This document shows positions 32,421-43,112 of a stretch of 64,000 nucleotides of DNA, piece after piece. This DNA comes from Kribbella sp. NBC_01245. GTDB taxonomy: Bacteria; Actinomycetota; Actinomycetes; Propionibacteriales; Kribbellaceae. Under the pieces are notes generated by a model. It was not told where the DNA came from and did no database searches. It saw nothing but the letters and a program-made list of their open reading frames with translations. Every line of letters starts with the position of its first letter. The stretch's first letter is position 1. A program made the translations under genes and the position numbers. The stretch is taken from assembly GCF_036226525.1 (NCBI RefSeq), contig NZ_CP108487.1:992001-1056000 (forward strand), read 5' to 3'.

Positions 32421-33032
32421 ATGGGCGTGGTGACCGAGGCGTGGGCGCGGATCGAGGGCTGGCTTGGGCGGCACGCGCCGGTCAGCGCAGCCGTGCTCGC
32501 GCCACCAGCCGACCCGGGTGAGATCGCCGCTGCGCAGGTCACGCTGGGGCTGACTTTTCCAGCCGAGCTGATCGAATCGCTGCGCCGCCACGACGGCTTG
32601 CTCAAATGGGCGAACGTCCTTCCCGAGAACCCGCCGCTGTCGGTAGCGGGTATCGTCGAACACCGGCAGATGTGTATGGACGTCGCTGAGGGTTTCGACG
32701 GTCTTACCCCAGCCGAACCGGGCGATGAGCCCTGGTGGCACGAGCTGTGGCTGCCATTCGCCGGCGCCGACGGGGACTCGCAGGTGATCGACCTGCGGTC
32801 GGGGCCGGGGTACGAGCGGTTGGGCTGGGCAGTGCACGACGGCACCGGTTCCTTCGACGGCGCCTGGCCTACGTTGGGTGCATACCTGACGGATACCGCT
32901 GAAGCCCTGGACAACGGCGTTGGGGTGAACGGCTGGTACCCGTACCTGACCGCCTTCGGCGAGCTCTGGTGGAGCACCGCGAACCAAACCGACCTCAACG
33001 GCGAGCCACTCCGGCCCGCTCCAACCGCGTAG
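32421..33032 (+). CDS. SMI1/KNR4-family protein
   Basis: 203 residues. The SMI1/KNR4 core is visible: a helix start with a Trp (AWARIEGWL), LPPAD-like APPADPGEIAAAQ, LTFPAELIESLRRHDG, LPFAGADGDSQVIDL and a late YLTAFGELWW. Such proteins serve as immunity partners of polymorphic toxins or as scaffolds. No toxin gene is next to it, so an immunity role here is only possible. Confidence 0.75.
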   Translation: MGVVTEAWARIEGWLGRHAPVSAAVLAPPADPGEIAAAQVTLGLTFPAELIESLRRHDGLLKWANVLPENPPLSVAGIVEHRQMCMDVAEGFDGLTPAEPGDEPWWHELWLPFAGADGDSQVIDLRSGPGYERLGWAVHDGTGSFDGAWPTLGAYLTDTAEALDNGVGVNGWYPYLTAFGELWWSTANQTDLNGEPLRPAPTA

Positions 33033-33042
33033 GCAAGACCCG

Positions 33043-33930
33043 TCACCAGGCGCAGCGGAAGCCCACGTTCCCGGCTGAACTGGATGGTTCGTTGGAGGAG
33101 CGGGCGCCGACGCGATAGCGGTTGCAGTACGACGCGTGGCACAGGTAGGACCCGCCGCGCATGACCCGGTTTTCGCCCGTGTCCCAGTGGTCCGCTGTCC
33201 ACTCCCAGACGTTGCCGGAAACTTCGTACAGTCCGAATCCGTTCGGCGGATAGCTGCGGACCGGCGCCGTACCCCGGTGGCCGTCCTCGGCGGTGTTCTT
33301 GGTGGGGAAGGTTCCCTGCCAGATGTTGCAACGATGTTCGCCGCCCGGGGTGAGCTCGTCGCCCCAGGGGTAGCGCTGCTGCTCCAGTCCGCCACGGGCC
33401 GCGCGCTCCCACTCGGCTTCGGTCGGGAGCCGGCTGCCCGCCCAGCGGCAGAAGTTCAGCGCGTCCGTCCAGGACACGTGGACCACAGGGTGATCGGGCC
33501 GGCCGGCCAGGTCCGATTGCGGGCCCTCCGGCCTCCGCCAGTCGGCACCGGTCACCCCACACCACCACGGAGTCGCCGCCGGCCGTTGGCTCACCTTGCG
33601 GATCTCGGCCGGTAGGAAACCGGCGAAGACGAAGCTCCAGCCGAATCGCTCGGCCTCGGTGACGTACTCCGTGTCCTCGACGAAGGCCGCGAACTGGGCG
33701 TTGGTGACCGCAGTGACCCCGATCGAGTAGTCGTCCAGACTGACCGGCCGCACCGGGCCTTCGCCGTCCGCCGGGAATCCATCCGGGTCGGCCGTTCCCA
33801 TCAGGAAGGTGCCTGCCTCGATCCGGACCTGCGGCAGGTCATCCCCGGCTGAGGCCGATGGAGCGACCTCGGCCTGCGAGCCCGCACTGGACGACGCCCG
33901 CGCCGGAGCACAGCAAGCGTGGTCGGCCAC
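33043..33930 (-). CDS. Formylglycine-generating enzyme (sulfatase activator)
   Basis: 295 residues from a GTG after GGAGAAGG. It has the SUMF1/FGE fold: GTFLMGTADPDGFPADGEGP near the start, RLPTEAEWERAARGG, GLYEVSGNVWEW, and the C-terminal GGSYLCHASYCNRYR. That last motif carries the paired cysteines (Cys264, Cys269) that bind copper in true FGEs, so this is a catalytic enzyme and not a generic SUMF1-domain protein. It oxidises the Cys of CxPxR in sulfatases to formylglycine in the cytosol. It faces the operon that ends in such a sulfatase, a strong functional link. Confidence 0.93.
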   Translation of the reverse strand: MADHACCAPARASSSAGSQAEVAPSASAGDDLPQVRIEAGTFLMGTADPDGFPADGEGPVRPVSLDDYSIGVTAVTNAQFAAFVEDTEYVTEAERFGWSFVFAGFLPAEIRKVSQRPAATPWWCGVTGADWRRPEGPQSDLAGRPDHPVVHVSWTDALNFCRWAGSRLPTEAEWERAARGGLEQQRYPWGDELTPGGEHRCNIWQGTFPTKNTAEDGHRGTAPVRSYPPNGFGLYEVSGNVWEWTADHWDTGENRVMRGGSYLCHASYCNRYRVGARSSNEPSSSAGNVGFRCAW

Positions 33931-34043
33931 CCTTCTCCTCCTCAGGACACCACCGATCGGCTCGCCGAGACCGTTCGGCGCCAGGACGTCGCCGACGTTA
34001 GCACTGGAATCAGGCGGTCTTCACGAGCCTTCCGTAGAGCGTC

Positions 34044-34072
34044 CGCACAAATCGGCAGTTCATTTGTCCGGA
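34044..34072. promoter_or_regulatory. Candidate ROK operator
   Basis: CCGCACAAAT at 34044-34053 and ATTTGTCCGG at 34063-34072 pair at 9 of 10 positions across a 9-base spacer. The site lies 39 bases before the ROK start, in the divergent region shared with the FGE gene, so it could control both transcripts. Confidence 0.6.
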
Positions 34073-34111
34073 CCCTTGTCGGAAAAATTGGCCCGCTCCT
34101 ACAGTGCGGTC

Positions 34112-35359
34112 ATGTCCAGCCCGTACGGCGTCCACGCCCTCGTCCGGCGTACCCATGAAGACCGCGTGCTGCGCGCCCTCCGCGAGGGCGGCGCGATGAG
34201 CAGAGGCGAGATCGCCGAGGTGGTCGGTCTGTCGCGGTCGACGATGTCAGAGATCACCGGCAGCCTGCTGCACCGTGGCGCGATCGTGGTCGTGAGCACC
34301 GACGCGGGGTACCGCGCGGGCAGCGGGCGGCCGGCCGAGCGACTGGCCCTCGACCCGGGCTCCGGTCAGTTCATGGGCGTTGACTTCGGTCATCGGCGGG
34401 TCCACGTCGTGGTGGCTGACGCCTCGCACGAGATCTTGCTGTCGGGCTCGACGCCGTACGAGAACGACACCCCCTGGCCGACCCGGATCGAGCGGGCGTT
34501 CACGTTGATCGATCAGCTGAGTACGGAGGCGCGCGTTCACTTCGGCGCTCTCCAGGGCATCGGGATCGGCGTTCCCGGGCCGTACCCGACTCCTCCGACC
34601 GCCAGGCCGCGCCTCGCCGGCGACGCCGTGGGGCAGCCGTGGGCCGACGGCGTGGACGCCGCCTTCATCCATCGATTCGACGCTCCGGCGATCGTCGACA
34701 ACAACACCAGGCTGGCGGCGCTGGCCGAGGCGATCAGCGGTGACCACTGGGTCGAGGACCTGCTGTACGTGCGCCTCGGTGACGGAGTCGGCGGCGGGCT
34801 GGTCGTGGGTGGCCGGCTGGTCACCGGCTCGAACGGTCTGGCCGGCGAGTTCGGTCACGTGACCGTGAAACCGGACGGCAAGCAGTGCCGCTGCGGCAAG
34901 CTCGGCTGTCTCGAGACTGTTGCCTCCGTTCCGGCCATCCTTGCCACCTGTCAGTCCAGCGGTGTCGCGGTGAGCAGCCTCGACGACCTGCAGGCAGCCG
35001 TTCACCGTTCGCATCCGGTCGTCGATCAAGTACTACGGGACGCGGCCGCCGCCGTCGGTGAAGTGGTGGGACGAGCGGCGATGACGTTGAACCCGGCCAG
35101 AATCGTGATCGGTGGTGAGATCACCAGGATCGCGCCGGTCATCGTGCAGCAGGCCGCCGCCACGGTCGCGTACGAATTGTTCCCCAGTGGCGTCGCGCGG
35201 CCGCCGGTCCGGGCCGCGGAGCTCGGTGAGGACGCCGGCGCTCTCGGCGCACTGGCAGCGCTGTTCCACAACAGCCCATTGCTGGCGGGCTACCCCGAAA
35301 CCGACGCGTCCGACCGCGCCGATACCTCTGAAGGAATGGCTCATGGCCGTGCTCACTAG
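34112..35359 (+). CDS. ROK-family transcriptional regulator
   Basis: 415 residues from the ATG at 34112 ([13 protein letters not shown]). The winged helix at about 15-75 ([19 protein letters not shown]) precedes an ASKHA sugar-kinase-like domain with [34 protein letters not shown] and the zinc site [13 protein letters not shown] repressors usually sense a sugar or sugar phosphate. It is the first gene of the transporter-sulfatase operon and overlaps the permease by 17 bases. The ribosome site is weak. Confidence 0.92.
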
Positions 35360-36185
35360 AAATCGCGCCGCCTCGGCGCCGTCCGCTCTGCCGCAGGACG
35401 GCCCGCCGGCGGCGCCGACCACCATCCGCGGCACGCGGCGGCGCCGGATTCCGCTCGGCGGCTTGAACGTGCTCTCCGTGCTCCTCGGCATCGCTGTCTG
35501 GTGGGCCCTCGCAGTCTCGGGTCTCAAACTGCCGACACCGCCGGAGGTGGTCGGCCGGGCAGTGACCTTGATCGGCAACGGCACCCTCGGCGAGGACGTC
35601 CTCGCCAGTCTGATCAGGGTCGTGACCGGATTCGCCCTGGGCACCGCCGCGGCTGTCCCGATCGGCTTCCTGATGGGGTGGTACCCCGCGGTGCGGGGCC
35701 TGGTCGAACCATGGGTCCAGTTCTTCCGCACGATTCCGCCGCTGGCGATCATTCCGCTCGCCATCGTGCTGATGGGCATCGGCGAGGCGCCCAAGATCTT
35801 CGTGATCTTTCTCGCCGCGTTCCTCGCCTGCGTGATCTCGACCTTCCAGGGGGTCGTGAACGTCGACCGGACGCTGATCAACGCGGCACGGGTGCTCGGC
35901 GCGAACGACCTCACGATTTTCCTGCGCGTGGTGGTGCCCGCCTCGACGCCGTTCATTCTGGTCGGCATGCGGGTCGGACTGGGCTCCGCCTGGGCAACGC
36001 TGGTCGCCGCCGAATTGATCGCGGCGCAGCAGGGCCTGGGGTACCGGATGCAGAACGCCCAGTTGTACTACGACCTGCCGACCATCTTCGTCGGCCTGAT
36101 TTCGATCGGCATCCTCGGGCTTGTGATGGACCGGCTGCTGCTGATGACCGAGCGCAAGCTCACCGGATGGCAGGAGCGCCGATGA
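35343..36185 (+). CDS. ABC transporter permease, SsuC/TauC-like
   Basis: 280 residues from the ATG at 35343 (GAAGGAAT upstream); this start lies inside the end of the ROK gene. About six membrane helices, with the coupling loop [26 protein letters not shown] and [20 protein letters not shown], characteristic of the nitrate/sulfonate/taurine family. This class moves small anions or cofactors rather than oligosaccharides, which is unusual beside a glycoside hydrolase. Confidence 0.92.
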
Positions 36186-36994
36186 CCACCACCGCCAAGA
36201 TCTCGGTTCAGGGCGTGACGAAGACGTTCCCCCTCGGCCAGGAGACGTTCACCGCGCTCGGAAACGTGTCGCTCGACATCGGCGACAACGAGTTCGTCAC
36301 CGTCGTCGGTCCGTCCGGCTGCGGCAAGAGCACGTTGATGAACATCCTCGCGGGCCTGGAGGAGCCGACGCACGGCCGGGCCCTGGTCGACGCCGTACCG
36401 GTGTCCGGTCCGTCACCCGAGCGGGGCGTGATCTTCCAGCAGTACGCGCTGTTTCCCTGGCTGACGGTGCGCCAGAACGTCGAGTTCGGCCTGCGGACCG
36501 CGGGGGTGTCCAGGGCCGAACGGCGAGAGCGAGCGCAGTACTTCATCGACATGGTCGGGTTGCAGCAGTTCGCCGACGCGCTCCCGAAGATGCTGTCCGG
36601 CGGCATGCGGCAGCGCTGTGCGATCGCCCGGGCGTACGCCGTCGACCCGTCGATCCTGCTGATGGATGAGCCGTTCGGCGCGCTCGACGCGCTCACCCGG
36701 GTCAAGCTCCAGGAACAGCTGCTGGACACGTGGAGCAAGGAACGGCGCACCGTCCTGTTCATCACCCACGACGTGGACGAGGCGGTGTTCCTGGCCAACC
36801 GGGTGATCGTGATGGCTGCCCGGCCGGGACGCATCTACGACGTCGTCGAGGTCAACCTGCCCTATCCGAGGTCGGAGGAGTTCCGGCTCAGTCCGGCGTT
36901 CGCCGCGCTGCGCAACCGCGTCTGGCGCTCGGTCTACCACCAGGACGGCCCGACCGCTGCCGTCACCGACGGCCTGATCAAAAAGGACCTATAG
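36182..36994 (+). CDS. ABC transporter ATPase, SsuB/TauB-like
   Basis: 270 residues from an ATG overlapping the permease stop (ATGA). Walker [10 protein letters not shown] at 43-51, Q-loop [12 protein letters not shown], signature LSGGMRQR, Walker [12 protein letters not shown] and the switch His in ITHDVDEA are all intact. It powers the permease and binding protein encoded on either side. Confidence 0.95.
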
Positions 36995-37996
36995 ATGGCT
37001 TTCTCACCGACCCGCCGGCGCTTTTTCGCTGCTGTCGCGGGCATCGTATTGATCACCACGGCCGTCGCGTGTGGCGACGACGGCAGCGCGGCCGGCGGCA
37101 CCGAGGACGTGAACTTCGGTTACATCGGGGACTTCAACGGCACCAGCCTGATCGCCGTCGCCAACGACCAGGAACTGTGGAAGAAGCACGGCCTCAAGGC
37201 GAACGCGAAGGTGTTCACCAACGGCCCGCTGCAGATCCAGGCTCTCGGTACCGGCGACCTCGACTTCGGCTATATCGGGCCAGGTGCCATGTGGCTGCCC
37301 GCGACGGGGCAGGCCAAGGTCGTGGCCGTGAACACCCTCGGCAATGCCGACCGGGTGATCGCCCAGCCGGGCGTCAACTCGATGGAACAGCTGAAGGGCA
37401 AGACCATCGGCGTACCAGAGGGCACCTCCGGCGACATGATCCTCACCCTTGCGCTGCAGAAGGCCGGGATGACGAAGGCCGACGTCAAGGTGGTGCCGAT
37501 GGACGCGTCGACGATCGTGTCGGCGTTCTCGTCGAAGAAGATCGACGCGGCCGGTTTCTGGTACCCGGCGATCGCCACCATCAAGAAGCAGGTGCCGGAG
37601 CTCGCGGAGCTGGCGAAGAACTCCGACTTCGAAGCGCAGGTCTCGTTCCCGACCGCGTTCGTGGCCGGCAACGACGTCGTTGCCAAGGAGCCGGACAAGA
37701 CCAAGAAGGTGCTCGCGGTGCTGCGGGAGGCGATGCAGTTCCGGTCGGCCAACACCGACAAGACCATTGAGCTGACCGCCGAGATGCTCGGCGTCAGTCC
37801 GGACCAGGTCAAGGCCGACGCGGCGAACGTCAAGATTCTCAGCGTCGACGAGCTCGACACGATGACCAAGGACGGCACGATCGTGAAATGGCTGACCGGG
37901 ATGAACGACTACTTCGTCCAGGCCGGGAAGCTGGAGCAGCCGGTGGATCCGAAGACGTACTACACCGGCGACCTGTTCACGGCGGCCGCCCAGTGA
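36995..37996 (+). CDS. ABC substrate-binding lipoprotein, NMT1/SsuA-TauA-like
   Basis: 333 residues; the ATG follows the ATPase stop with no gap. The signal has RRRFF and lipobox TAVAC, so Cys26 is lipidated. The mature protein matches the sulfonate/nitrate-binding type: LWKKHGLKAN, LGTGDLDFGYIGPGA, QLKGKTIGVPEGTSGDM and AAGFWYPAI. The ligand is probably a small anionic compound; in this operon a sulfated sugar or sulfate ester is likely (inference). Confidence 0.92.
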   Translation: MAFSPTRRRFFAAVAGIVLITTAVACGDDGSAAGGTEDVNFGYIGDFNGTSLIAVANDQELWKKHGLKANAKVFTNGPLQIQALGTGDLDFGYIGPGAMWLPATGQAKVVAVNTLGNADRVIAQPGVNSMEQLKGKTIGVPEGTSGDMILTLALQKAGMTKADVKVVPMDASTIVSAFSSKKIDAAGFWYPAIATIKKQVPELAELAKNSDFEAQVSFPTAFVAGNDVVAKEPDKTKKVLAVLREAMQFRSANTDKTIELTAEMLGVSPDQVKADAANVKILSVDELDTMTKDGTIVKWLTGMNDYFVQAGKLEQPVDPKTYYTGDLFTAAAQ

Positions 37997-39498
37997 CGAA
38001 GCCGGCCAACATCCTGTTCCTGATGACCGACCAGCACCGGGCCGACACACTCGGTGCCTATGGCAACAGTCTGGCCGCCACGCCGGTGCTCGACGAACTC
38101 GCCCGCACGGGCACCAGGTTCGATCGCTGGTACACGCCGACCGCGATCTGCACACCGGCCCGGGCCAGCCTGCTGACCGGTCAGGCCCCCTTCCGGCACA
38201 AGCTGCTGGCCAACCACGAACGCAACGTCGGCTACATCGAAGATCTGGCCGACGGCCAATTCACCTTCTCTGCCGCGCTGCGCGAGAAGGGCTACAACTG
38301 TGGGCTGATCGGCAAATGGCACGTCGGGACGCATCGTACGGCCGCCGACTTCGGGTTCGACGGTACGCATCTGCCCGGCTGGCACAATCCAGTCGATCAC
38401 CCGGACTACCTGGCCTACCTGGCCGAGCACGACCTCCCGCCGTACCGGATCAGTGACCACATCCGGGGCACGCTACCGAACGGCGGACCAGGCAACCTGC
38501 TCGCCGCCCGCCTGCATCAACCGGTCGAAGCGACCTTCGAGCACTACCTGGCGACCAGGGCCATCGAGATGCTCGAGCGGTACGCCGCGGACCAGCGCGA
38601 CGACGGCCCGCCGTTCTTCCTCGCACTGCACTTCTTCGGTCCACACCTGCCCTACATCCTTCCCGACGAGTACTTCGACCTGTTCGACCCGGCGGACATC
38701 GAGCTGCCACGTTCGATCGCGGAGACCTTCGAAGGCAAGCCGCCGGTGCAGCGCAACTACAGCGCGCACTGGACGTTCGACACCATGCCGATCGAGGCCA
38801 CCCGCAAGCTGATCGCCGCCTACTGGGGATATGTCGCGCTCATCGACCGGCAGATCGGCCGGGTGATGGACGCGATGGAGCGACTCGGTCTGGTCGACGA
38901 CACGGCAGTGTTCTTCACCTGCGATCACGGCGAGTTCACCGGGGCACATCGGCTGCACGACAAGGGGCCGGCGATGTACGAAGACATCTACCGAACCCCG
39001 GGTCTGCTCCGGGTCCCCGGCGCGCCCGCGGGCGTGGTGCGGTCGGAGTTCGTCAGTTTGCTCGACTGCACCGCGACCATTCTCGAACTGGCCGGTATCG
39101 ACCCCAAGCCCGCGATCGACTCACGCAGCCTGCTCCCACTGGTCAGCGGAGGCGAGGCAGAGTGGGACGACGACATCGTCTGCGAGTTCCACGGACACCA
39201 TTTCCCTTACCCACAACGGATGTTGCGCACCGATCGCTACAAACTGATCGTCAACCCCGACTCCGTCAACGAGCTGTACGACCTGTCGGCCGATCCGGAC
39301 GAACTGCTGAACGTCTACCGGCTCCCCGAGCTGGCCGAGGTCCGCAACCAGCTGATGCGGCGGCTGTACACCGTGCTGCGTGACCGTGGCGACAACTTCT
39401 ACCACTGGATGACCTCGATGTACGACGTCGGCGACGTCGCCTACGACCCCACCTTGAGCGGGCTCGACGAGGCCAGCTACCAGGGCGGCGCGCGATGA
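37993..39498 (+). CDS. Formylglycine-dependent sulfatase (S1 type), cytosolic
   Basis: 501 residues from a GTG in a GTGA overlap with the binding protein. The sulfatase signature is CTPARASLLTG with Cys53, the residue converted to formylglycine. Metal ligands appear as LMTDQHR (Asp13) and later TCDHGEFTGAH; GKWHVG carries the conserved Lys and His. There is no signal peptide, so hydrolysis of the sulfate ester takes place inside the cell, after import. The adjacent FGE gene should mature it. Substrate class is unknown; CxPxR sulfatases act on sulfated sugars and other esters. Confidence 0.93.
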   Translation: MTKPANILFLMTDQHRADTLGAYGNSLAATPVLDELARTGTRFDRWYTPTAICTPARASLLTGQAPFRHKLLANHERNVGYIEDLADGQFTFSAALREKGYNCGLIGKWHVGTHRTAADFGFDGTHLPGWHNPVDHPDYLAYLAEHDLPPYRISDHIRGTLPNGGPGNLLAARLHQPVEATFEHYLATRAIEMLERYAADQRDDGPPFFLALHFFGPHLPYILPDEYFDLFDPADIELPRSIAETFEGKPPVQRNYSAHWTFDTMPIEATRKLIAAYWGYVALIDRQIGRVMDAMERLGLVDDTAVFFTCDHGEFTGAHRLHDKGPAMYEDIYRTPGLLRVPGAPAGVVRSEFVSLLDCTATILELAGIDPKPAIDSRSLLPLVSGGEAEWDDDIVCEFHGHHFPYPQRMLRTDRYKLIVNPDSVNELYDLSADPDELLNVYRLPELAEVRNQLMRRLYTVLRDRGDNFYHWMTSMYDVGDVAYDPTLSGLDEASYQGGAR

Positions 39499-39537
39499 CG
39501 GATGCCTCCATTGTCACGACCCAAGGAGATCTCGCGC

Positions 39538-41955
39538 ATGACCAGTCATGAGAACGGCTTTCCCGTTGGCCGGCGGTCCGTCCTGAGCGGTCTGGCCGGT
39601 TTGGCCGGAGCGGCGATGCTGCCCTCCGGTGCGGCGTCCGGCGCCCCCGCACCTGGACTCGAGTCGGTGGACCCGGCGTGGGGGCGGCGCTACCCAGCAC
39701 CCTGGCCCGAGCTCGCGCCGTACGGCCTGGCTGACACCCGGACCGACCTGTGGCCGCGAGAGGACAACTCCTTCGTGCTGCCGCTCGAGCTCCGCCCCCG
39801 CGATGAGGAACTTGGGCGGGTGTGGATGCGCGACACCTACGTCAACTGCTTCGTCGTCGACGGCCGGCCGCTGTACGTTGCAACGGGTACGACGCGTGTC
39901 CCCGGACTCCCTGCGGCCGGACCGTGGAACGACGGAATCTTCGTTTGGCTCGCGCCATCGCTGCATGGACCGTGGCGGCTCGCCGACACGTCCGGAATCA
40001 GGCCCGACGCGGAGAAGGGCAAAGTCTGGTCGTCCGAGTTCGTCGGCGAGAACCGGGCCGGGCGCACCGTGGTCGCACCGTGGCAGGAGTTCTGGTACGA
40101 CGACCAGTTCGGCAAACGCGGCCAGGTCTGGGCCCCGGAGCTGCACTACTTCCGCGGCACCTGGTACATCGTCGCCTGCATGGGCGACCACTCTCGCAAG
40201 GTCGGCTCCTTCCTCCTCATCAGCGAGGGCGGGGTCGAGGGTCCGTACCGCCTTGCCGAGGGCAACGTCGAGAAGCCGTTCGGGGACTCCTTCATCGGCG
40301 GGCCGAAGTTCATCGAGCCCGGCGCCTACCACCACATCGACGGGAGCCTCTACACCGAAGGCGACGACGCGTGGCTGGTGCTGCACAACGACCTGTACGC
40401 CAGATTCCGCGACGACCTGGAAGACATCGTCCCCACTACCGCCTTGCCCAAGTTCCAGCAGAGCCCGTACTCACCCGAGCCCTATCTTGAGGGGTCGTAC
40501 GTCTTCAAGCACGGTGGCAAGTACTACCTTTTGCACGCTGCGTGGGACCGCGCCTCGACCAACGCCGACGGCACCACGCGGAACGCCTACGACCCGCCCG
40601 GGCCGGGGCGCGTTCAGTACCAGTACGACGCTGTGCTGGCGGTCTCCGATCACTTCGAAGGGCCGTACTCGAAACGGTGGACCGCGGGTGTCGGCGCCGG
40701 CCACAACAACCTCTTCGAGGACGCGAGCGGCCAACTGTGGGCGACGTTCTTCCGCAATCCGGCCTTCGGCTATTGGGCCGACCCGGCACGCATCGGCGAG
40801 GCGGCGGTGCCGGGCGTCGTACGCCTGGAGTGGACCGGGCCGGCGAGCAACCGCATCTACGTCCAACGACGAGGGCGCCGGATGCAACCGTTGCCCGCGC
40901 TCGGTGCGCTCGGGGCCAACTTCAACGAGAATCTGGACCAGCTGAACTATGGCGAGCTGAACTCGGCTCACGCTACCTGGATCCGTGGCTTCTACGCCGT
41001 GAACGAGGCCGACGACGTGCCGCCCGAGCAGAGCGCCGGCCTCCGGGTGATCCGCGAGGCACACGAGCGGGGCTTCCGGACCATCCTGAGCTTGAAGTTT
41101 CCCAAGACCGACGTCGCCTTTCCACGACCGGGCAGCGCGGAGATGACCGCCGAACTCGGGCGCCTGGACCGCATCCTGCCGCTCGTGCTCGGGACGGCCG
41201 ACATCGTGACGATCGGCAACGAACCGTTCATCGAAAGCATGCCGAGCCAACGCGACCAGCGGCTGAACGAGTTCTACGAGACCGTGGCGCGCCACGTGAT
41301 CGCGGCCCGGGCGAACAACAGTCCCGCCCCGTATTCCACCCATCTGTACATGGGAGCGCTGAACCGGCTGGATCTCCCCGAGCAGCGCACTCCCGCCGTC
41401 GAGCGCTACCTCGCGTTCGCCCGCAGAACGCCAGCCATCGAGGGCGTGGACCTCCATCCGCACGTGCGCGACGAGGCCCGGATCCAGGACTTCCTCGACT
41501 ACACGCTGCCGCGCCTTCGGCCCGATCAGACCTTCCTGGTCACCGAGTTCTCCATCGTCTGGCACTGGCAACAGCACCTGACCGATCGGATCCCGGCCGC
41601 CTTCGCACGGCATTACGGCTACTCGCCGGACGTCCAGGTGTGGCAGGTCATCGGCGAGGCGATCAAGCAGCCGTTCCCCGCGCAAAAGTGGAACGATCTC
41701 CTGTCCCAGAGTCCATGGTTCGAGTCCAGGAAGCACTTGCTGCGCGACGAAATGGCGCGGTTCCGCAGTACGGGCAGGCTCGCCGTCGCGACGTACGGCT
41801 TCCGCCAGATCCCATCGATGACGGCCAACTGGAGCGCCACCAAAACACCCTGGCTGCTGAACAGCGTGTTCGCGCCCCTAACAGTGCGACCACGCGCCGA
41901 CGGCACAGCCACGCCGGGCTACGCCTGGATCAACGACTTCCGCTCGCTGCAGTGA
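39538..41955 (+). CDS. Tat-exported two-domain glycoside hydrolase: GH43-like propeller plus clan A-type TIM barrel
   Basis: 805 residues from the ATG at 39538, preceded by AAGGAGAT; the ATG at 39502 lacks such a site. GRRSVLSG is a twin-arginine signal. Residues about 40-450 are a five-bladed GH43-like domain with MRDTYVNCF, VWAPELHYF and the general-acid-like LEGSYVFKHGGKYY. Residues about 455-780 are a second, barrel-like domain with IGNEPF (Asn561-Glu562) and VTEFSIVWHW (Glu670), the spacing of acid/base and nucleophile in clan A hydrolases. I know no named family for the second part. It is the last gene of the sulfatase operon and the only exported enzyme in it. Confidence 0.8.
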   Translation: MTSHENGFPVGRRSVLSGLAGLAGAAMLPSGAASGAPAPGLESVDPAWGRRYPAPWPELAPYGLADTRTDLWPREDNSFVLPLELRPRDEELGRVWMRDTYVNCFVVDGRPLYVATGTTRVPGLPAAGPWNDGIFVWLAPSLHGPWRLADTSGIRPDAEKGKVWSSEFVGENRAGRTVVAPWQEFWYDDQFGKRGQVWAPELHYFRGTWYIVACMGDHSRKVGSFLLISEGGVEGPYRLAEGNVEKPFGDSFIGGPKFIEPGAYHHIDGSLYTEGDDAWLVLHNDLYARFRDDLEDIVPTTALPKFQQSPYSPEPYLEGSYVFKHGGKYYLLHAAWDRASTNADGTTRNAYDPPGPGRVQYQYDAVLAVSDHFEGPYSKRWTAGVGAGHNNLFEDASGQLWATFFRNPAFGYWADPARIGEAAVPGVVRLEWTGPASNRIYVQRRGRRMQPLPALGALGANFNENLDQLNYGELNSAHATWIRGFYAVNEADDVPPEQSAGLRVIREAHERGFRTILSLKFPKTDVAFPRPGSAEMTAELGRLDRILPLVLGTADIVTIGNEPFIESMPSQRDQRLNEFYETVARHVIAARANNSPAPYSTHLYMGALNRLDLPEQRTPAVERYLAFARRTPAIEGVDLHPHVRDEARIQDFLDYTLPRLRPDQTFLVTEFSIVWHWQQHLTDRIPAAFARHYGYSPDVQVWQVIGEAIKQPFPAQKWNDLLSQSPWFESRKHLLRDEMARFRSTGRLAVATYGFRQIPSMTANWSATKTPWLLNSVFAPLTVRPRADGTATPGYAWINDFRSLQ

Positions 41956-42059
41956 CCGTCAGTGCAGGGAATCCCTGAACCTTTGCATTCGCCCTTCCTC
42001 CACTTAAGCGCGCGACTTACGTTGTGACGGCATACCCCTGCGTCGATACGGAGGCTCCG

Positions 42060-43112
42060 ATGGCGCCGAAGACCTGGACCACCACGCTCGCCCTGACCGC
42101 GACCGCGGCCCTGACCCTGGCGCCCGCGCTGACGGCGTCCGTCGCCAGTGCGAAGCCGCCGGCCGGCAACACCACCGCGAAGGCGCTGGTCTTCATTCCG
42201 AACCCGGTGCAGTCCAGTGGTGACCAGTCCCTCACCGACCAAAAGGACTCGGCGACGGCGGTTCCCCGCGGTGAGTACTACGAGGTGACCCTGACCGACT
42301 TGGACGGCTCCGGCTACCTGCGCGGTAGCTGGGCGAACGTTCGGAGCAGCACCGGCACCCCGGCATACAGCACGAACGGCACCTACTTCTACAACCGGCA
42401 CGACGACCAGTTCGAGCAGGTGATGTCGTACTTCTGGGGCACTGAGGCACAGAAGTACCTGCAGTCGCTCGGCTTCGGCAGCGAGCTGCCGCCGGTGAAC
42501 GCCGAGAGCCAGGACTACAAGGTCGACCAGTACGGCCTCGACAACTCGTTCTCCTGGGACAAGCACGACACGATCACCCTCGGCAAGGGCGGCGTGGACG
42601 ACGCCGAGGACGGCGAGGTGATCGTCCACGAGTTGGGGCACGCCGTACATGACGCCCAGGTGGCGGGCTTCGGCGCCTCGCTCGAGGCCGGCGCGATCGG
42701 CGAGGCGTGGGGCGACTACTTCGCGGTGACCGTCGGCGACTGGGTGGCGAAGAAGTACGGCGTCGCGGTGAAAGCGCCGCTGGCCTGTGTGATGGACTGG
42801 GACGCGACGTCGTACACGTCGACGGTTCCGCACTGCCTGCGTCGTCTGGACACCGGCAAGCACTACCCGGAGGACGTCGTAGGCCGGGTACACGCGGACG
42901 GGGAGATCTGGTCGCAGGCGCTGTTCCAGATCCGCACCGCGCTCGGCCCGACGGCGGCCGACCGGATCATCGTCAACGCTCAGTTCGCCTTCGCTCCGGA
43001 CACCACCTTCGCCGCTGCGGCCCGGCAGACGGTTGCTACCGCACAGTCGATGTACGGCGCCAGGCAGGCCGCCGTCGTCCAAAAGGCATTCGCAGACCGC
43101 GGCATCCTCTAA
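42060..43112 (+). CDS. Secreted gluzincin metallopeptidase (M36/M4-like)
   Basis: 350 residues from the ATG at 42060, after GGAGG. A signal peptide ends near SVASA (about 30). Zinc motif HELGH has His190, Glu191 and His194, and GEAWGDYF supplies the third ligand Glu215, as in fungalysin and thermolysin relatives. It lacks a long propeptide, so it is shorter than typical M4 or M36 proteases. Probably an extracellular protease; not obviously tied to the sulfatase operon before it. Confidence 0.82.
   Translation: MAPKTWTTTLALTATAALTLAPALTASVASAKPPAGNTTAKALVFIPNPVQSSGDQSLTDQKDSATAVPRGEYYEVTLTDLDGSGYLRGSWANVRSSTGTPAYSTNGTYFYNRHDDQFEQVMSYFWGTEAQKYLQSLGFGSELPPVNAESQDYKVDQYGLDNSFSWDKHDTITLGKGGVDDAEDGEVIVHELGHAVHDAQVAGFGASLEAGAIGEAWGDYFAVTVGDWVAKKYGVAVKAPLACVMDWDATSYTSTVPHCLRRLDTGKHYPEDVVGRVHADGEIWSQALFQIRTALGPTAADRIIVNAQFAFAPDTTFAAAARQTVATAQSMYGARQAAVVQKAFADRGIL

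Follow-up and report, generated by a model that had tools for sequence, protein, structure and literature searches.

Genes for an ABC importer of the Ssu/Tau class, a cytosolic sulfatase and an exported two-domain hydrolase lie together in a 64,000-nucleotide stretch (the window) of the single-contig, 8.68-Mb chromosome of Kribbella sp. NBC_01245, and probably form, with the regulator and the maturation enzyme encoded beside them, a pathway under local control which salvages a sulfated monosaccharide. The plan of this pathway is well supported, and its ligand is predicted. A minus-strand gene for a formylglycine-generating enzyme (FGE) faces a compact plus-strand operon encoding a ROK regulator, the permease and ATPase of the importer, a lipoprotein substrate-binding protein (SBP) and the sulfatase; the gene for the hydrolase, whose N- and C-terminal parts are called GHn and GHc, comes next. 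All seven genes, described earlier in this order from the sequence only, have been confirmed by family profiles, and the overlapped arrangement of the operon by the gene coordinates (Table 1).

To judge from signals and families, the hydrolase would leave the cell by the twin-arginine (Tat) route, trim a sulfated glycan outside by its GH43-like and GH-A domains, and free a small sulfated sugar, most likely sulfated galactose or arabinose. The SsuA-type lipoprotein would bind this sugar via the anion cradle which holds sulfonates in TauA and SsuA, and the ABC importer would carry it inward. In the cytosol, the signal-less FGE would oxidise Cys53 of the sulfatase to formylglycine, and the sulfatase, assigned by family and with a predicted substrate, would remove the sulfate. 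The free sugar would pass to central metabolism, and the sulfate could be assimilated. A conserved 30-bp element overlaps the putative promoter of the ROK gene, and through this element the regulator may control the operon, the releasing signal being the sugar itself or a product derived from it. Release outside, uptake and desulfation inside had been proposed by the sequence-only reading, and this plan is still the best supported. It gains added support from the exchange of import modules and from the shared promoter element, both described below.

Conservation of the gene set

The same gene order, which the sequence-only reading proposed to seek in other actinomycetes, has been found both in Kribbella and in further families. 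ROK, permease, ATPase, SBP and sulfatase genes follow each other in the same order in 8 further Kribbella genomes, and GHn adjoins them in 8/8. Outside the genus, the set is accompanied by GHn and GHc in Jiangella aurantiaca, Microbacterium barkeri, Micromonospora yasonensis, Actinomadura madurae and Streptomyces oryzae; in the last three species the FGE gene is inside the cluster. Soil actinomycetes of six or more families carry the gene set, a recurrence which hints at a function of this importer family that is apparently undescribed so far. A search of 395 genomes of the class gave nine SBP homologues with at least 47% identity outside Kribbella. Each of the nine shares the operon with this sulfatase, five also with FGE, and the refuting condition named by the sequence-only reading, a transporter conserved with unrelated genes only, did not hold. 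The importer-sulfatase set is kept where the glycosidase differs, being of the GH20 type.

A separate SBP clade (39–40%) belongs to Ssu-type importers with no adjacent sulfatase (L253:6185-13376, L254:6832-14021). Their loci hold a Gfo/Idh/MocA oxidoreductase gene and two ROK genes, and represent another sugar-associated Ssu-type importer.

Two interchangeable import modules

Related sulfatases (62–86%) are also found in loci which encode a sugar importer of the CUT1 type and a GH51 enzyme devoid of an export signal, the latter matching solved alpha-L-arabinofuranosidases at 2.5e-87. Such loci reside in Nonomuraea, Phytoactinopolyspora, Haloactinopolyspora, Microlunatus and some Kribbella. They resemble the window locus in the sulfatase, in the presence of GHc in most, and in the regulator (ROK or LacI), and differ in that a sugar-class importer and a signal-less arabinofuranosidase relative replace the Ssu importer and the exported GH43-like enzyme. 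Among the loci that a search with GHc alone returned, 8 were of the Ssu type and 13 of the CUT1 type. GHn was found in all 8 Ssu-type loci and in one of the 13 CUT1 loci, GH51 in none of the former and in all of the latter. The loci are split into two alternative modules, an Ssu-type importer with an exported GH43-like enzyme versus a CUT1 importer with a signal-less GH51. Kribbella turkmenica encodes an 86%-identical sulfatase at one locus together with LacI, GHc, GH51 and a CUT1 binding protein. A single branch of the sulfatase tree separates the two transporter types, its support being modest (82/64). In the simplest reading, a small-anion importer is enough where the sugar is freed outside, and a sugar importer plus an internal glycosidase are needed where an oligosaccharide is imported.

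A promoter element shared with separate glycosidase genes

The regulator carries a PF00480 domain and a helix-turn-helix (HTH) region, and a site is predicted at its own promoter, as in ROK repressors. The 30-bp element has the consensus TTTTGTCGGAnnGTTGACGGAAwAATTCCG. It lies over the putative ROK promoter both in Kribbella and in other families, and occurs once in the whole Kribbella sp. NBC_01245 genome. A putative promoter read by eye consists of TTGTCG (-35, 34076-34081) and TACAGT (-10, 34100-34105), and the ROK transcript is probably leaderless. Scans for sigma-70 promoters and terminators gave nothing above chance.

A matrix built from the Kribbella ROK sites only was compared with random 300-bp stretches. 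It matches upstream of ROK in the new genomes, and also 5' of separately placed genes for GHn (L116, L119, L123, L141), GHc (L148, L155), GH43 (L247) and GH20 (L251, L252), in both cases mostly above the 99th percentile of the random stretches; part of the score may reflect the promoter itself, because the element contains a -35-like TTGAC. The second group of sites ties exported glycosidases to the importer-sulfatase operon beyond adjacency. The element was not found 5' of the window's hydrolase gene, which fits co-transcription with the operon. Upstream of the window's FGE the score (10.4) is exceeded by roughly 1% of random stretches, too weak a signal after some 30 tests.

The importer and its binding protein

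The importer had been assigned to the SsuABC/TauABC class, and the SBP belongs to it by profile, with 221.4 bits over the SsuA_fam (TIGR01728) cut-off of 163.5. Its structure model is nearest to SsuA and TauA (Z 28, about 25 for the next group). Both the TauC and the SsuC scores of the permease are under the equivalog cut-off. In TauA, the sulfonate is contacted by Gln30 and by the main-chain NH of Gly61, Gly79 and Thr132 (PMC6906117). The SBP keeps Gly77, Gly95 and Ser145 of this anion cradle, has Trp189 in place of TauA Trp176 and Asp119 in place of Glu106, and the replacements of Gln30 and Glu106 run through the entire sulfatase-linked clade. As Gln30 has no counterpart, the pocket differs from known ones, with the cradle retained. 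The nine locus genes that were scanned included neither a sulfonate monooxygenase or dioxygenase (SsuD/TauD) nor sulfoglycolysis genes.

Sulfatase and FGE

The sulfatase has both the sulfatase domain and the C-x-P-x-R motif (C53TPAR) of type I formylglycine enzymes; its N terminus is directly the catalytic domain, with no signal ahead. In the FGE, the two active-site cysteines of the oxygen-dependent enzymes are C264 and C269 in SYLCHASYC. The presence of these motifs, the signal-less state of sulfatase and FGE and the Tat-type export of the hydrolase agree with what had been claimed from the sequence. Of four PF03781 matches in the genome, only the window FGE has the two-cysteine motif. Three FGE relatives (76–78% identity) each adjoin a sulfatase gene. 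The coupling of FGE with the operon, also claimed earlier, stands for the window, the only one of nine Kribbella loci in which the two adjoin, and for several other genera; FGE is a frequent, optional neighbour. Adjacency of FGE as a defining trait was hence rejected. Choline sulfate was rejected as substrate of the sulfatase, which scores 188 bits against a choline-sulfatase (TIGR03417) cut-off of 433.

Small Propionibacteriales with no close FGE homologue encode a radical-SAM anaerobic sulfatase maturase (L051:12718-13950, scoring over its cut-off, and L053:12782-14011), near a 53% sulfatase and a sugar MFS transporter. This pairing is again one of maturation without export, and has been counted in favour of the proposed pathway. 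The sulfatase of Phytoactinopolyspora endophytica (L120:13064-14580) aligns in two pieces (query residues 1-81 and 83-497), and may hence be broken or misassembled.

The two-domain hydrolase

The hydrolase begins with GRRSVLSGLAGLAGAAM, and the twin arginine is kept in 11/11 aligned GHn homologues. GHn scores 64.4 bits against PF04616 (cut-off 32.2), with the first blade unaligned. The propeller is poorly modelled, and its fold matches were discarded. A candidate catalytic triad (Asp99, Asp268, Glu318), assigned by eye, is invariant in 11 homologues. GHc is modelled as a confident (beta/alpha)8 barrel (pLDDT mostly 80–97), for which the best matches by structure comparison are GH5, GH1 and GH164 (Z about 20). 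Sequence matches were absent from Pfam, NCBIfam and PDB sequences, CAZy itself being outside the search. The candidate catalytic residues Glu107 (in GNEP) and Glu215 (in TEFS), in domain numbering, are invariant in 13 homologues. On the barrel model and the two glutamates, GHc is predicted to be a clan GH-A glycosidase of no assigned family.

The hydrolase is two enzymes in one chain. GHn and GHc are fused in a single frame in the window and in L034, and are separate genes in other Kribbella (L033, L037, L040, L041); wherever the separate GHc was read, it bears a signal sequence of its own. GHc synteny was rejected as a universal marker of the system, most homologues in Streptomyces and Amycolatopsis standing alone.

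In sphingomonads and relatives (L158, L161, L169, L173, L177, L178, L183), GHc homologues adjoin other sulfatases, and GH43 genes have been confirmed nearby in L161, L173 and L183. The association suggests that the link of GHc with sulfatases predates the actinomycete operon, or moved between phyla.

Layout of the locus

Coordinates are listed in Table 1. ROK and permease genes overlap by 17 bp, permease and ATPase genes by 4 bp, SBP and sulfatase genes by 4 bp, and the ATPase–SBP gap is zero. The hydrolase starts at 39502 or 39538, its reading frame being already open from the ATG at 39502. Two flanking genes, for a SUKH/SMI1-KNR4 protein (32421-33032, 3' of FGE) and for an M4/M36-like metallopeptidase (42024-43112, beyond the hydrolase), were not found in the syntenic Kribbella loci.

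Table 1. Features of the Kribbella sp. NBC_01245 locus, in window coordinates
Feature	Position	Strand	Evidence
FGE, two cysteines (Cys264/Cys269), no export signal	33043..33930	-	PF03781 261.5 bits; SYLCHASYC
Conserved 30-bp element over putative ROK promoter	34063..34092	+	shared by ROK upstream regions of 8 Kribbella genomes and of other families
ROK-family transcriptional regulator, N-terminal winged helix	34112..35359	+	PF00480 161 bits, HTH_IclR; NagC-like
ABC importer permease, Ssu/Tau class	35343..36185	+	PF00528; TauC 158 bits, SsuC 120 bits
ABC importer ATPase, Ssu/Tau class	36182..36994	+	PF00005; taurine ATPase 247 bits, below cut-off
Lipoprotein SBP, SsuA/TauA family	36995..37996	+	TIGR01728, model, anion-cradle residues
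Cytosolic type I (formylglycine) sulfatase, GTG start	37993..39498	+	PF00884 163.8 bits, SGSH_C 83 bits; Cys53 in CTPAR
Hydrolase N-terminal part (GHn): Tat-type signal, GH43-like domain	39538..40902	+	PF04616
Hydrolase C-terminal part (GHc): predicted clan GH-A barrel	40903..41955	+	structure model, invariant Glu

The likely sugar

Hints at the identity of the sugar come from neighbouring genes. The A. madurae operon runs sulfatase-FGE-GalT with 4-bp overlaps, GalT scoring over its cut-off, and a second exported GH43, arabinanase-like in L116, was found in Ssu-type loci of several families. These, and the GH51 of CUT1 loci, hint at a sugar of the galactose or arabinose type. Sulfated arabinogalactan proteins exist and require sulfatase (PMC8406133). 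In two loci with more distant sulfatases (57–59%), the exported enzyme is GH20, encoded by hexosaminidase genes with a ROK-type element beside the importer-sulfatase set (L251:15431-17815, L252:4071-6566), which suggests a sulfated N-acetylhexosamine version there. Overall, the exported glycosidases would be exchangeable around a constant core of importer and sulfatase.

Related systems

Earlier examples exist of an Ssu/Tau-class importer paired with a cytosolic sulfatase. Pseudomonas atsRBC-atsA encodes a sulfate-ester importer and a cytosolic arylsulfatase, is regulated by sulfur starvation and serves for aryl and alkyl sulfates. The two systems are alike in the Ssu/Tau-class ABC importer adjoining a cytosolic formylglycine sulfatase; the Kribbella locus differs from atsRBC-atsA by its ROK regulator, by its exported glycosidases, by the FGE encoded in the cluster and by its distant sulfatase. 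With SsuABC and TauABC the locus shares SBP fold and family, the Gly/Gly/Ser cradle and the tryptophan; it differs in the replaced glutamine, in the lack of a monooxygenase among the nine scanned genes, and in having a sulfatase as partner. Marine and gut polysaccharide utilisation loci also combine glycoside hydrolases with formylglycine sulfatases, but feature other importers, and their sulfatases are mostly exported.

Ssu-type importers beside choline-sulfatase-type genes were found in L147:13717-19408 (with an FGGY sugar kinase), L256:8051-12223 and L260:7905-12244. These clusters are probably operons for the uptake of choline-O-sulfate or other sulfate esters. They resemble the window locus in importer class and adjacent sulfatase, and differ in the sulfatase, which in L147 exceeds the choline-sulfatase cut-off and in L256 and L260 shares 68% identity with that of L147, and in the SBPs, which form a separate clade with Gln/Ala at positions 119/145. 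Because these clusters and atsRBC-atsA pair an importer with a sulfatase, the earlier statement that no described system has this gene set was too strong. The novelty lies in the joining of such a pairing with exported glycosidases, a ROK regulator, FGE and a CUT1 alternative; no description of this combination was found in the literature searched, most subscription journals lying outside it. For the acesulfame sulfatase of Bosea, the proposed importer is of the ABC type and a distant relative of systems that take up small anions (PMC10413263).

Alternative explanations

Several observations weigh against the salvage of a sulfated monosaccharide. The SBP has Ile44 or Asp46, depending on the alignment, where TauA has Gln30, and this contact is lost; X. 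citri SsuA does not bind sulfate esters (PMC3839906). FGE and operon are apart in 8/9 Kribbella loci, GHc is missing from three (L035, L038, L039), and many GHc homologues of Streptomyces and Amycolatopsis have no sulfatase nearby. Fisher tests of the module split (4e-5 and 5e-6) are uncorrected for shared ancestry.

The locus might serve for general sulfur scavenging from mixed aryl and alkyl sulfate esters, as AtsRBC-AtsA does, the hydrolase being an unrelated neighbour. Transporter class and cytosolic type I sulfatase are those expected, and choline-sulfatase clusters with Ssu-type importers do occur in actinomycetes; yet the regulator is a sugar-type ROK with no sulfur regulator in its place, the exported glycosidases are conserved partners bearing the same promoter element, the sulfatase clade also inhabits CUT1 sugar loci, and the A. 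madurae operon includes GalT, all of which makes scavenging unlikely. That the importer carries a true sulfonate, such as sulfoquinovose or another sulfonated sugar, while the sulfatase serves something else in the regulon, would agree with the SsuA_fam score and the retained main-chain contacts. This is very unlikely, given an importer clade inseparable from the sulfatase (9/9), the 4-bp overlap of their genes, and scanned locus genes which include none for SsuD/TauD or sulfoglycolysis. It is highly improbable that a sulfated disaccharide or oligosaccharide is imported, the hydrolase merely shortening the polymer: its folds are those of polysaccharide-cutting enzymes, and related loci hold several more sulfatases and glycoside hydrolases, but no signal-less glycosidase was found in Ssu-type loci, whereas GH51 is always present in CUT1 loci, and known Ssu/Tau ligands are small (PMC6906117, PMC3839906).

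Significance

Beyond the window, the evidence tilts towards a branch of Ssu/Tau importers dedicated to sulfated monosaccharides, fixed with a cytosolic sulfatase as an alternative to CUT1 import, and with exported partners including an undescribed clan GH-A family. If the ligand is a sulfated sugar, the usual annotation of Ssu/Tau-type proteins as sulfonate importers would mislead for this branch. Two glycoside hydrolase groups acquire a defined prediction for specificity, and the loci offer a clean case of two import strategies exchanged around a seemingly identical desulfation step. If true, the pathway would provide soil actinomycetes with a concrete route to carbon and sulfur from sulfated glycans.

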